From positions 3,429,001 to 3,493,000 of the forward strand of contig NZ_CP134772.1 in NCBI RefSeq assembly GCF_031882575.1: a stretch of 64,000 bases of DNA, read 5' to 3'. Every line of letters begins with the position of its first letter. The first letter of the stretch is position 1. This document shows positions 30,421 through 35,858 of this stretch, piece after piece. Below the pieces are notes generated by a model that had not been told where the DNA came from, ran no database searches, and worked only from the letters and a program-made list of their open reading frames with translations. Source of the DNA: Pseudomonas sp. VD-NE ins. GTDB lineage: Bacteria > Pseudomonadota > Gammaproteobacteria > Pseudomonadales > Pseudomonadaceae. A program made the translations under genes and the position numbers.

Positions 30421-30508
30421 GGAGGTGTGGCCGAGTGGTTTAAGGCAACGGTCTTGAAAACCGTCGACTGTAACAGGTCCATGAGTTCGAATCCCATCGC
30501 CTCCGCCA
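30421..30508 (+). tRNA. tRNA-Ser (anticodon UGA)
   Basis: The acceptor arm GGAGGTG pairs with CGCCTCC, the anticodon loop CTTGAAA gives UGA, a long variable arm follows as in serine tRNAs, the T-loop is GTTCGAATCC, and CCA is encoded. It reads UCA-type codons. It marks the boundary between core genome and phage or cargo DNA and is a typical integration target. Confidence 0.97.
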
Positions 30509-31782: not shown

Positions 31783-31806
31783 CTTTTGTACAGCGAACCC
31801 CGCAAC

Positions 31807-32532
31807 ATGAATTTCGACCAGGCAAAAAACCTACGGCTCCAGCGATGGTGCGCGACTCTCGACGATCAGGACTTCCGTATGCAAAACCCAGAGGGGCATC
31901 GGGAAACCCTCCACGAGATGGCAGCTACGCTCCGCGATGAGGGCCTGATCGACCAGCTTGAGCAATTCGACATGAACGAAATGGCAGACGCCGCGTACTG
32001 GCAAGCCGTCGAGGAGCTGCAGAACTCGCCCGGGCACTACCGCGGCGCCTCTACCTATGACGTCGTTCAGATCGACAACGGGAATCTGCTGGGCACTATC
32101 AGCCGGTCAATCTTCAACTTCGAAAGTGATGAACCGCGCGGCGCTTCCTTCGCCTATGACGGCAAGGTCTACTCTGACGCTGATGGTGTGCGGCTGACTT
32201 TGAGTCTTTCTCGGAAGATTGGGCTGATTTCAGGCCTGGTGCTGGAAATGAATGGTCGCCGATATCAGTTGGTAGAGACCGAACGAATGATCGTCGGCAT
32301 CACCCACCCACCTCTCTCTGACGCTGACGCCTATCGAGCGCTTATAGATGCAGCGCAAGTCGCGCATGAAGAAAGGGATCTCCGCGTCTTTGAAAAGGTG
32401 CGCCCTCATATTGAGTCGGCCGCTTTCTGCCTTTGCCCCGCCTGTCTCGATCGCTTTGGTGTGCGTGACGATTGCTCGACCTGCGCCGGGAAAGGTTTTG
32501 TGAAGAAGCCGGCGCCGACGTATCTACGCTGA
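31807..32532 (+). CDS. SOS-regulated unknown protein with C-terminal zinc-finger-like motif
   Basis: 241 residues from ATG 31807; the upstream in-frame region contains the LexA box, so it is not coding. Soluble, no signal peptide. The C-terminus has CLCPACLDRFG and CSTCAGKGF, four or five cysteines in CxxC pairs like a DnaJ-type zinc ribbon. The rest is not recognised. With an SOS box in front, a DNA-damage-linked role is likely, possibly tied to prophage induction. It is followed by a hairpin at 32601. Confidence 0.75.
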   Translation: MNFDQAKNLRLQRWCATLDDQDFRMQNPEGHRETLHEMAATLRDEGLIDQLEQFDMNEMADAAYWQAVEELQNSPGHYRGASTYDVVQIDNGNLLGTISRSIFNFESDEPRGASFAYDGKVYSDADGVRLTLSLSRKIGLISGLVLEMNGRRYQLVETERMIVGITHPPLSDADAYRALIDAAQVAHEERDLRVFEKVRPHIESAAFCLCPACLDRFGVRDDCSTCAGKGFVKKPAPTYLR

Positions 32533-32708: not shown

Positions 32709-33248
32709 TCATCCGAAAGACAGATTGCTGAAAGCCCAAATCAATAGTGTAAAAATAAAGATTGATAGTAATCCGAACGCTACACCACTAAGTTCATACA
32801 GAAACCTATTGACTCGGCTTAGTGCGGAACTGCTAAAATACAGCTCATCGCACCCAAGTTCTATTTTCTCCACTATCTGAGATGCTAAAGCTCTAGCCTT
32901 GTAACTAAGCTCATCTCGACCAGACTCTTTGAAGAAGTCCAAATCTCTTAGTGCACCGACCATTGCAATATCAACCAAAGATGTTCGAACATGGCCATTT
33001 AACTGATTGACACGCAGTTCCAGTTCCAGCATCAACCCAGTATACGCCTCCTCCGCTCTACTCGCATCGAAATTCCCCTTTGTAACTTCATCCTCTACCC
33101 ACGATGACAAGTTATCCAATCGGTCGATAATTTTATCTTTCCGCTTCAGAGCCTCAGCTCTTCGGTTTGCATTGTATTGAAGATAAATGGTAAACATCCA
33201 CCCAACCAATAAAACTATTAGCTGACCGGGAAGGTTTTGAAAATTCAT
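32709..33248 (-). CDS. Two-TM membrane protein of the GHKL/DUF4325 cassette
   Basis: 179 residues: a membrane helix at each end (about 7-24 and 154-175) and a helical cytoplasmic middle with charged coiled-coil sequence (NRRAEALKRKDKIIDRLD). I recognise no family. It overlaps the DUF4325 gene by four bases (ATGA), so it is the last gene of a three-gene unit. The AT-rich composition differs from the surrounding phage. Membrane-bound effectors of this build are common in abortive-infection systems; that role is inference. Confidence 0.75.
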   Translation of the reverse strand: MNFQNLPGQLIVLLVGWMFTIYLQYNANRRAEALKRKDKIIDRLDNLSSWVEDEVTKGNFDASRAEEAYTGLMLELELRVNQLNGHVRTSLVDIAMVGALRDLDFFKESGRDELSYKARALASQIVEKIELGCDELYFSSSALSRVNRFLYELSGVAFGLLSIFIFTLLIWAFSNLSFG

Positions 33249-33574
33249 TTATCCTTACCACCTGCAGCGTCAATTCGATCCTTGATTAGCGTTTCAATGC
33301 TTTTAACAAGAGAATGTGAATAAGTTAATTTTCTTTGCAACTCATCCCAAGTAAATCCTTCTTCGCGGATTAGTCCACCAAACGCCTCATCCAAGAAAGA
33401 TCGACCATAACGATTATAACCATCGAGTTCCACGTGAACCTCGTCGTACTCTCGCAACTTAGGAGCGAGAATTCTTTCTCGAAAGTACTGGCCGCAACCT
33501 TCCCCGTCGTCAGGATATCTGCCATATGGACGCTTACTAAAATCCTTGACGACACTAATTGTAATTTTACTCAT
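33245..33574 (-). CDS. STAS-like DUF4325 protein
   Basis: 109 residues. The block YGRSFLDEAFGGLIREEGF (about 58-76) is the DUF4325 signature, a STAS-like fold often encoded next to GHKL ATPases. By analogy with SpoIIAA/SpoIIAB it may be the partner or target of the ATPase. Start ATG 33574 overlaps the upstream stop (ATGA), and its own stop overlaps the membrane gene start, so all three proteins should be made together. Confidence 0.82.
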   Translation of the reverse strand: MSKITISVVKDFSKRPYGRYPDDGEGCGQYFRERILAPKLREYDEVHVELDGYNRYGRSFLDEAFGGLIREEGFTWDELQRKLTYSHSLVKSIETLIKDRIDAAGGKDK

Positions 33575-34671
33575 AATTCTATATTCCATTGGACCAAGGT
33601 ACCAGGGAACTTATTCTTCAGCTTAGACGCACCTGGCTGCTGCCCGTCTTCATTAAACGTATAAAGACCGTTATTACTAAACACCCACAAAACACCACCA
33701 TCCGTATCGTTAACAAGTGCTTTTATACTCTTGCTACCTTGACCATGCTTTTCTTGGCGGGTTCCAGAAACGTCATTTTGCATGGAAAAATAAATCAATC
33801 TCTCATCAGAAACTCTAGTGGGCACTGCATCAAAAATCTTAACACCTGAGCTCTCGAAATCTGGAATATCTTTAGTCATGTCATCATAAAGCTTAGGATC
33901 AGTAAATTTCAGAAGCGGGAAGAACCACGGTTGTTTCACCACAGTTTTCGGTATCCCCACACCACAATCATATATCGCTAGGTATAATTTCTTCCCGAAA
34001 GTGCTACACATCAGCCACCAGCGTTTATTCTCGTTGGGCTCTCCGGGATAGGCGTGCAACCTTACATTATTAATAGTTTCAGATACCGCATCACCGTAGA
34101 CGTGCTCCTGCTCTGGGCTCATTCGACCGTCGTATATTCGACGCTGGATAAAATCTACGACTTCATCCATTTGCTCCCTACCAACACTCGACACAATTGG
34201 CATATTCCTAGAACTAGTAAGAGCATACTTAATCTCAAATCCATTTATAAGCTTATGCAAATTACTAGATTTTATTGCATTATTAACCGCAGGAGACTTG
34301 AGAGAGAGAGAAACGCTAGCTTTGCCTGACCGGCCGACGCCTGCGAGTTCAATTGCAGCGTAAACCACTACTAACGCTGCTGCAGAAATCTTCTCTGTTC
34401 GGGAAAAATCAACTACACAATTTCGGTTCCGGTACTTCTTGCGAATCTGATGTAGAAACTCCATTGTCTCATTATACGGACTGACTCTACTTTCAAATTC
34501 ATAAATAGAGATGTATTTGGGGGCAATAAAAACATCTCTGTCAATCAACGCACGTACAGGTGCAATTTTCCCTGCAATATATTTTTTATTTTTTCGACGC
34601 AGTTGTATAAGCCATCGAGCCTCGCCGGCGGCCTGCTTTATATCCCTATGTTCTGCGCTAATTCGCTTCAT
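33571..34671 (-). CDS. GHKL (HATPase_c) ATPase with STAS-like segment
   Basis: 366 residues from ATG 34671 (GGA 7 nt upstream; a GTG at 34710 is the alternative). Residues about 85-115 (CVVDFSRTEKISAAALVVVYA) look STAS-like. The ATPase domain follows: N-box ETINNVRLHAYP (E198, N201/N202), G1 box DCGVGIP (D235-G239) and G2 box HGQGSKSI (309-316). No histidine-phosphotransfer site or receiver is present, so it is not an ordinary sensor kinase; it resembles anti-sigma-type serine kinases or MORC/Hsp90-like switches. First gene of a coupled three-gene cassette at the prophage cargo end. Confidence 0.82.
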   Translation of the reverse strand: MKRISAEHRDIKQAAGEARWLIQLRRKNKKYIAGKIAPVRALIDRDVFIAPKYISIYEFESRVSPYNETMEFLHQIRKKYRNRNCVVDFSRTEKISAAALVVVYAAIELAGVGRSGKASVSLSLKSPAVNNAIKSSNLHKLINGFEIKYALTSSRNMPIVSSVGREQMDEVVDFIQRRIYDGRMSPEQEHVYGDAVSETINNVRLHAYPGEPNENKRWWLMCSTFGKKLYLAIYDCGVGIPKTVVKQPWFFPLLKFTDPKLYDDMTKDIPDFESSGVKIFDAVPTRVSDERLIYFSMQNDVSGTRQEKHGQGSKSIKALVNDTDGGVLWVFSNNGLYTFNEDGQQPGASKLKNKFPGTLVQWNIEL

Positions 34672-34885: not shown

Positions 34886-35398
34886 TCAATCAGATTCAAA
34901 AATTTTTCTAACATACGATTGACACGCCTGCAGCGCGATCAACCCCCGGTCGCTGGTGTTGGTAATGTCGATAATTCGTTGAGCATGCGCCGGGTCAAGT
35001 CGGGCGCGTACGGTTGCATGATCCACGCCGCGGGCGCCGGCGGTGGCAGGCATGTCGCAGCCTTTGGCAACGTCGGTTGCGTCGAGGAGGACTGACAGCC
35101 GCAGATCAGAAGTGGCAAGGCGATCACGCAGGCGATCTTGGTCACGTTGGGCATCGGTCATTTTCTCGAAGTGGGTTTTCTCGCTGGCCGAAAGCTTCTG
35201 CTCGAGCGCCAGGCGCTTGTCCTGCTCGACCTGTTGGGCGGTAGCTGCAGCGATGGTCAATTGATTGAGGGTTTCCGCGCTCAGCCTCGCCTGCTCCGCC
35301 AACTGTTGCCCATAACGCCAGTCCTGAAACTGCCAGGCGCTGCCGAAGCCGGCGAGCACCAGCGCAAGCGCGCCCACCGCTTTCCAAGGTACGACCAT
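34886..35398 (-). CDS. Rz-like i-spanin
   Basis: 170 residues: N-terminal membrane anchor (about 6-23) and a long periplasmic coiled coil (about 30-110), then a cysteine-bearing C-terminus. It disrupts the outer membrane with Rz1 in the last step of lysis. ATG 35398 overlaps the endolysin stop (TGATG). An Rz1-type lipoprotein gene is nested in another frame inside it. Confidence 0.88.
   Translation of the reverse strand: MVVPWKAVGALALVLAGFGSAWQFQDWRYGQQLAEQARLSAETLNQLTIAAATAQQVEQDKRLALEQKLSASEKTHFEKMTDAQRDQDRLRDRLATSDLRLSVLLDATDVAKGCDMPATAGARGVDHATVRARLDPAHAQRIIDITNTSDRGLIALQACQSYVRKIFESD
34939..35154 (-). CDS. Rz1-like o-spanin lipoprotein, nested in Rz
   Basis: 71 residues in a different frame within the Rz gene. 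The lipobox LLICGC (Cys20) follows a short hydrophobic signal, and the mature part is proline-rich (LPPPAPAAW), both hallmarks of Rz1. Entirely embedded Rz1 is the lambda arrangement. It should join the C-terminus of Rz to span the periplasm. Confidence 0.85.
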   Translation of the reverse strand: MPNVTKIACVIALPLLICGCQSSSTQPTLPKAATCLPPPAPAAWIMQPYAPDLTRRMLNELSTLPTPATGG

Positions 35399-35820
35399 CA
35401 CGGCACATCCCTGAAGAACACGTGACCACCCAACTTGAGCGTCTGCTTTGCCTTCGCCGCCCAGGCCGGGGCCTTGATGCTGGTGGCGTAGTAGTGCGTG
35501 GCACCGCCGGTAGGATCCAGCACTTTCCCGTCGATCACTTGGTCAGCCGCGATCCGGCACTGCGCCAGCTCGCGGAACGGAATCTGCTTCACGCCAATCA
35601 GGAACTGATAGTTCGGGTCTGTCTTGTTCCAGCAGCTGAACTGGTACTTTGCCTGGCAAACGCCAGCGTAGCCCTCACCCCACCACGAACTTTCCCTCCC
35701 ATCAAACACGCGGTTGCGAATCGTCCAGGCCACGGCGATCTGGCCGGCAGTTCCTTCGCCGCGGGCCTCTCCCCACAGCGTGCGCGCGAGGATGTCTCGA
35801 TCTTTTTCGGTTGCAGTCAT
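35398..35820 (-). CDS. SleB-type cell-wall hydrolase, phage endolysin
   Basis: 140 residues of the Hydrolase_2 (SleB) family, starting RDILARTLWGEARGEG with the catalytic glutamate, then AVAWTIRNRV and a DPTGGATHYYA block. It cleaves peptidoglycan. ATG 35820 has GGAG 6 nt upstream; another ATG precedes it by one codon. No signal peptide, so release needs the holin, which is encoded far away at 63261-63593. It is directly followed by Rz. Confidence 0.9.
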   Translation of the reverse strand: MTATEKDRDILARTLWGEARGEGTAGQIAVAWTIRNRVFDGRESSWWGEGYAGVCQAKYQFSCWNKTDPNYQFLIGVKQIPFRELAQCRIAADQVIDGKVLDPTGGATHYYATSIKAPAWAAKAKQTLKLGGHVFFRDVP

Positions 35821-35836
35821 CATTATCTCCAAGCAC

Positions 35837-35858
35837 AAAAAAACCGCCTCATGGGCGG
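35837..35858 (-). terminator. Rho-independent terminator before the lysis genes
   Basis: On the minus strand CCGCCCATGAGGCGG followed by TTTTTTT. It separates the tail-fibre genes from the endolysin gene. The same sequence with its flank is repeated at 42096-42120. Confidence 0.85.

Follow-up and report, generated by a model that had tools for sequence, protein, structure and literature searches.

A prophage operon encoding a predicted kinase, a DUF4325 protein and a membrane protein as a candidate anti-phage relative of VapKSC

Results

A three-gene unit in a Pseudomonas prophage

We analysed a 64,000-nucleotide stretch of Pseudomonas sp. VD-NE ins (contig NZ_CP134772.1, positions 3,429,001 to 3,493,000; hereafter the window), in which an earlier note, made from the sequence alone, had proposed three overlapping prophage genes as a candidate undescribed defence system. 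Our best explanation as a whole is that this trio, here named A, B and C, would be a mobile module against phages, carried mostly by prophages and forming a sister branch to the VapKSC system, and that phosphorylation of B by the kinase A would release a membrane effector, C. We give this explanation a probability of roughly 0.5, a figure that allows for its being partly correct. The trio has the following features, numbered by position in the window.

32709-33248, minus strand: gene C, 179 amino acids, membrane protein without a known family
33245-33248, minus strand: ATGA overlap of B and C, read from the sequence
33245-33574, minus strand: gene B, 109 amino acids, DUF4325 (STAS-like) partner
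33398-33400, minus strand: codon for Ser59 of B, an invariant residue where helix 58-70 starts, proposed to accept the phosphate
33571-33574, minus strand: ATGA overlap of A and B, read from the sequence
33571-34671, minus strand: gene A, 366 amino acids, matching phrog_3364 (expectation value, E, 3.8e-66)
34066-34080, minus strand: N box of A, codons E198 to N202, unchanged across 30 close relatives and 29 divergent ones

Both junctions were ATGA overlaps, as the earlier note had read them, and the trio was AT-rich as described there: its guanine plus cytosine (G+C) content was 42.2%, versus 58.8% in the remaining window. The note had also suggested looking for the same trio elsewhere, and the arrangement proved to be widely kept. 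With an alignment of A we found 46 homologous loci (24 from species genomes and 22 from IMG/VR), a set that includes copies and holds 38 distinct C proteins. A, B and C were consecutive in 43 of the 46; the exceptions were two loci truncated at a contig end, one inside A (L051) and the other behind B (L043), and one with a split third gene (L037). This last locus, from Avibacterium, carries the third gene in two frames (L037:11300-11900) and is the sole uncut locus of the 46 without an intact C. Gene A was present in 20 of 398 sampled Pseudomonas genomes, the window's included, and in all 19 of the others A, B and a third gene stood in a row. Among 5426 complete E. coli genomes, a DNA search found 20 with an 81-base match lying within a STAS-like gene; in all six of the records inspected among these 20, the trio lay in a P2-like prophage, flanked by the portal gene on one side and the replication endonuclease gene on the other.

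The trio was found further in Marinobacter phage AS1, in a Helicobacter prophage, on two Vibrio plasmids and on a Novosphingobium plasmid, where C is unannotated but its frame is open; one plasmid copy adjoins MazF/MazE-type genes. Genes 46-48 of Francisella phage KIRK, right after CI, are described as one gene like an AS1 protein, one DUF4325 gene and one transmembrane (TM) gene (PMC7924643; here and below, statements from cited papers refer to the available parts of those papers). Pairwise distances of A, B and C correlated at 0.84, 0.81 and 0.79 over 39 loci, values that are uncorrected for shared descent. Against the window's closest relative, the ratio of nonsynonymous to synonymous divergence (dN/dS) was ~0.03 for A (0.041/1.425) and ~0.04 for B (0.050/1.363); for C, dN was 0.076 and dS was saturated. 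Because the dN/dS values are low and the gene order is kept elsewhere, the trio is more than a chance arrangement. It is a real unit.

A and B resemble VapK and VapS

The predicted structure of A showed a STAS-like domain at approximately residues 32-144, followed by a GHKL domain at approximately residues 155-366. The two parts that the earlier note had seen in its GHKL ATPase with a STAS-like segment were thus present in the model, and only the word ATPase gave way. In fold comparison the best matches of the GHKL part were the anti-sigma serine kinases SpoIIAB and RsbW; Hsp90, gyrase and topoisomerase VI ranked below them. We considered a MutL/MORC- or Hsp90-type ATPase and dropped this reading as less likely because of the higher fold scores of the anti-sigma kinases. 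A has the features of a SpoIIAB-type protein, namely a GHKL serine-kinase fold with an N-box Glu and Asn, and the roles of E198 and N202 are presumably those of the corresponding residues in SpoIIAB. On its predicted fold, serine kinase appears a more fitting name for A than ATPase. No HTH (helix-turn-helix) family matched A, and the model showed a single long helix ahead of the STAS part.

The earlier analogy to SpoIIAB/SpoIIAA partner switching agreed with both the fold and the sequence of A. The trio shares with SpoIIAB/SpoIIAA and RsbW/RsbV the GHKL fold of A and a STAS-like partner, but differs from them in the STAS domain of A itself, in a membrane protein as the third gene, and in the lack of a sigma factor; as the note had stated, none was seen in the window operon, either in the gene list or in a Pfam search.

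The partner, B, matched PF14213 (DUF4325) in Pfam with E 3.6e-15, which upheld its earlier assignment. It consists of one STAS-like domain reaching the protein end, without an HTH match, and has a conserved N-terminal part in which P16, R19 and R32 are invariant.

We compared these proteins with VapKSC (Chambers et al., EMBO J 2026, PMC13373217), a system in which a STAS-GHKL kinase accompanies a VapC-like toxin and its inhibitor, a STAS protein. In the authors' model phosphorylation releases the toxin, and the operon gave ~2 logs of protection against phage Bas42; VapS has a conserved Ser/Thr acceptor, S48, and VapK an aromatic residue, F54, for binding single-stranded DNA (ssDNA). The available main text of that paper does not contain the name DUF4325, and its passages with the word membrane concern a compound class and blots. 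We found that the VapS chain (PDB 9Z7O, residues 44-111) matches PF14213 with E 2.5e-14. A survey with PF14213 gave matches in 29 of 398 Pseudomonadota genomes and in 21 of 298 genomes of the window's family, yielding 49 loci. At least 19 of the 49 contained A, B and a third gene with a hydrophobic segment called by script, and four others (L123, L126, L150 and L153) had a third gene with a PIN domain (Pfam E 7e-9 to 1.5e-5). Operons of VapKSC type are present in Pseudomonadota, two of the four being in the window's own family.

VapK- and VapS-type profiles were built from these four loci and from L124, in which no PIN gene was seen. A matched the VapK-type profile across its STAS and GHKL parts (probability 99.2, E 2.5e-19), and B matched the VapS-type profile (probability 95.0, E 3.8e-8). 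By these profile matches A and B are homologues of VapK and VapS, and VapKSC is the closest known system. In a kinase tree of 42 rows, a branch with support 96/99 separated 30 of the 31 kinases with a membrane-type third gene from all four PIN-type kinases; L082, whose third gene is of the membrane type, clustered on the PIN side with L143. The tree has several long branches that leave its details unsure, and the labels of L037, L015 and L083 have a weaker basis.

The trio and VapKSC have in common a three-gene operon, a STAS-GHKL kinase without an HTH, a DUF4325 partner, and mobile and defence contexts. They differ in the third gene, which encodes a PIN-domain toxin in VapKSC and a membrane protein in the trio, and also in the separate branch of the trio kinases, the conserved N-terminal part of B and an acceptor Ser that lies one column off. 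Because the trio has the kinase and the STAS antitoxin of VapKSC but lacks its PIN toxin, we did not file it as VapKSC; the trio probably works like VapKSC with another third component. A kinase/STAS switch in the trio is, in our judgement, very likely.

Other DUF4325 loci departed from both patterns. In L124 (1-2766), the VapK- and VapS-type genes are followed, ~0.9 kb on and on the same strand, by the start of another protein, which looks like one of DUF262/GmrSD type; a further effector type may exist, judging from this locus. Pairs of GHKL-type and DUF4325 genes in which we recognised no third gene occurred in L131, L133, L154, L156 and L081, whose partners may be elsewhere. In L117, L119, L128, L136 and L138 the DUF4325 match lay inside an open frame of 338-533 codons, possibly fused to other domains.

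A membrane protein in the third position

In window C, hydrophobic segments begin at residues 7 and 156, in line with the two-TM protein noted earlier. Using a hydropathy script, not a trained predictor, we called an N-terminal segment above threshold in 39 of 39 distinct C proteins and an additional C-terminal one in 24 of them. Positive charges exceeded negative ones in the 25 residues past the first segment in 32 of 39, which fits an outward N terminus. Searches of four libraries gave no family with E <0.1 for C (the best match was in PHROGs, E 0.19), and Pfam gave no match up to E 1. C also evolved fastest, with a mean column identity of 20% versus 51% for A and for B; only M1, W17, R30 and E32 were near-invariant.

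Such rapid change would be expected of a part that meets changing phages. C could then be a sensor or anchor, feeling membrane or injection stress and bringing B and A to the membrane, with a protein outside the operon as the output or with DNA entry blocked, as in superinfection exclusion without killing. The presence of only one clear hydrophobic segment in 15 of the 39 C proteins agrees with this role. Fast change is usual for effectors too, however, and the C gene stands where the homologous VapKSC operons have the toxin gene. We regard a sensor or anchor as rather unlikely, and tentatively take C to be a membrane effector that is released.

Prophage cargo sites and defence hotspots

The trio starts behind the spanin gene, after a gap of 214 bp, and the spanin and endolysin genes directly upstream place it behind the lysis genes of the prophage, where the earlier note had put it. 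The neighbouring features are as follows.

30421-30508: tRNA-Ser, beyond the phrog_19595 gene on the far side of the trio
31804-32532, plus strand: phrog_19595 gene, convergent, the other neighbour of the cargo site
34886-35401, minus strand: Rz-like spanin (PHROGs E 4.7e-52), the phage-side neighbour of the cargo site
35398-35838: endolysin (E 5.1e-23), upstream of the spanin

Upstream beyond the endolysin lie tail fibre and central tail fibre J genes, and part of the structural region matched Pseudomonas phage PseuP_222 (79.9% identity over 37% of 24.3 kb).

We compared the window site with 14 stretches beside the phrog_19595 flank gene in other Pseudomonas genomes (21 further places were listed). 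Between spanin and phrog_19595, one stretch (L174, 6464-7516) carried a relative of PD-T7-5 (PADLOC E 9.2e-120) and a Dam-type methylase, and two (L165, 7039-7854; L172, 6969-7784) carried one identical TIR_2 protein (Pfam E 8.3e-9). L164 and L166 had AT3-SGNH acyltransferases, L175 a methylase-like gene, and L169 and L170 small genes; L167, L168 and L177 had only an SRAP-like gene, and L171, L173 and L176 ran into other sequence. The SRAP and methylase assignments were confirmed by Pfam in L166 and L174 only, the rest of these two kinds being assigned by eye. The interval is an interchangeable prophage cargo site. Separately, L148 (443-2539) probably has a GHKL-type gene and a DUF4325 gene at the same cargo site, since their neighbours, judged by eye, resemble SRAP and phrog_19595 genes; we saw no third gene there.

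An S24 repressor-type gene lay at most ~1.1 kb upstream of the trio on the same strand in 4 of the 20 Pseudomonas genomes (G084, G139, G051 and G015) and in 4 of the 22 virus contigs (L054, L059, L060 and L061, of which L059 and L060 are near-copies). We liken this arrangement to lambda, in which rexAB lies behind cI. Integrase genes adjoined the trio in at least four Pseudomonas genomes (G307, G339, G024 and G066). In the six E. coli records, the position of the trio corresponds to gpQ-gpA of P2, a hotspot whose validated systems include old/tin (Rousset et al. 2022, PMC9122126; Vassallo et al. 2022) and which hosts defence systems interchangeably (PMC9122126). The sites of the trio are where temperate phages keep accessory and defence genes, and the earlier remark that it occupies a usual place for defences holds for the P2 hotspot and for the window site with its PD-T7-5 and TIR alternatives.

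The same surroundings bear on whether the trio, instead of having a general role in defence, serves the element that carries it by sensing DNA damage and tuning induction of the prophage, the timing of lysis or immunity. The S24 neighbours in several phages, the integrases, the lysis genes in the window and the response of the relative CapK to ssDNA all accord with such a service; the presence of the trio on plasmids, the variety of its sites among unrelated phages and an E. coli position used by interchangeable defence systems do not, and we think it unlikely. A toxin-antitoxin pair with a kinase, stabilising a mobile element, appears very unlikely: three copies are on plasmids, one of them beside the MazF/MazE-type genes, and VapKSC was termed toxin-antitoxin-like by its authors (PMC13373217), but the P2 hotspot and the alternatives at the window site argue against it. 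Defence is the likely function of the trio.

Discussion

We propose that A, a serine kinase with its own STAS domain, would be activated by infection with a foreign phage or by DNA damage, and would then phosphorylate B, most likely at the invariant Ser59. Unphosphorylated B would keep the cytosolic part of C inactive, and phosphorylated B would let go; the freed C would disturb the inner membrane, and the infected cell would stop before phage release. Phosphorylation of B by A and binding of B to the third protein are suggested by homology. Analogy alone suggests that DNA damage or ssDNA would be the signal, as it is in CapK, that C would be released and that membrane damage would abort the infection. 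RexB of lambda, for which a membrane-based stop of the infected cell has been proposed, is our model for the action of C.

Several observations weigh against this mechanism. In the window the trio has the orientation of the late genes, its promoter-like sites number 4 where 4.3 are expected by chance, and the nearest S24 gene of the genome is ~35 kb away, so that expression in the lysogen is unsure. The acyltransferases in L164 and L166 show that the site accepts cargo of another kind too. C had no homology to any toxin or pore in the family-library searches, and the N-terminal segment of the third gene, clear in 17 of 19 other Pseudomonas places, was weak in L010 and L015. Lastly, the acceptor Ser of VapS, which we infer to be S48 from the chain length and the paper, aligns without gaps with residue 58 of B, one column before Ser59; residue 58 is Arg in the window and Ser or Pro in other copies. 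Either Ser59 is the acceptor in the membrane-type branch, or the acceptor differs.

Other known systems resemble the trio in part. CapK/CapS (PMC13373217) likewise has a kinase with STAS and GHKL domains and a STAS partner with a conserved Ser, and CapK is activated by ssDNA, but B has no winged HTH behind its STAS domain, no HTH was found on A, and no immune operon adjoins the window trio. Lambda RexAB and a RexAB-type system in P. putida (PMC12894663) are likewise prophage operons, frequently beside the repressor gene, that pair a cytosolic component with a membrane protein. Neither includes a kinase or STAS protein, and in P. putida four TM helices are predicted for the membrane protein; the likeness is in position and layout only. 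We also rejected two candidates for the identity of the trio, WonAB and VcSduA, as their common source describes them: WonA belongs to the ABC ATPases, and in VcSduA a GHKL part is fused to a nuclease.

In P2-like prophages of E. coli, the trio occupies the locus of the P2 gpQ-gpA systems. Neither STAS nor GHKL is mentioned in the available main text of Rousset et al. 2022 (PMC9122126). That paper reports protection against P1 by a validated system of three genes at this hotspot, described as having 'no clear predicted domain'. This system could be the trio, and novelty is claimed with this caveat. PADLOC-DB 2.0.0 gave no match to the window trio up to E 1 or to the E. coli trio up to E 10. 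Our literature search, whose reach excluded most subscription papers and bioRxiv preprints, found no paper describing the trio as a system and did not find partner switching joined with phage defence; in the literature covered, DUF4325 was named in two papers and VapKSC in one. The earlier word undescribed stands in that no PADLOC model matches; the system is not an isolated one, as A and B are homologous to VapK and VapS. The trio is apparently undescribed and widespread.

We suggest, with some reserve, that the trio represents a widespread unnamed anti-phage class, the membrane counterpart of VapKSC, with a STAS-GHKL kinase, a DUF4325 antitoxin and a released membrane effector, carried by lambda-like, P2-like and other temperate phages, plasmids and integrative elements in Gammaproteobacteria, Alphaproteobacteria and Helicobacter. 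The trio, which PADLOC-DB 2.0.0 misses, is a testable candidate in the best-studied P2-like defence hotspot of E. coli and in 20 of the 398 sampled Pseudomonas genomes, and it offers a candidate function for part of the DUF4325 family. If our explanation is true, the kinase/STAS switch of CapKS and VapKSC would be a general trigger, wired to a transcription factor, an RNase or a membrane protein.
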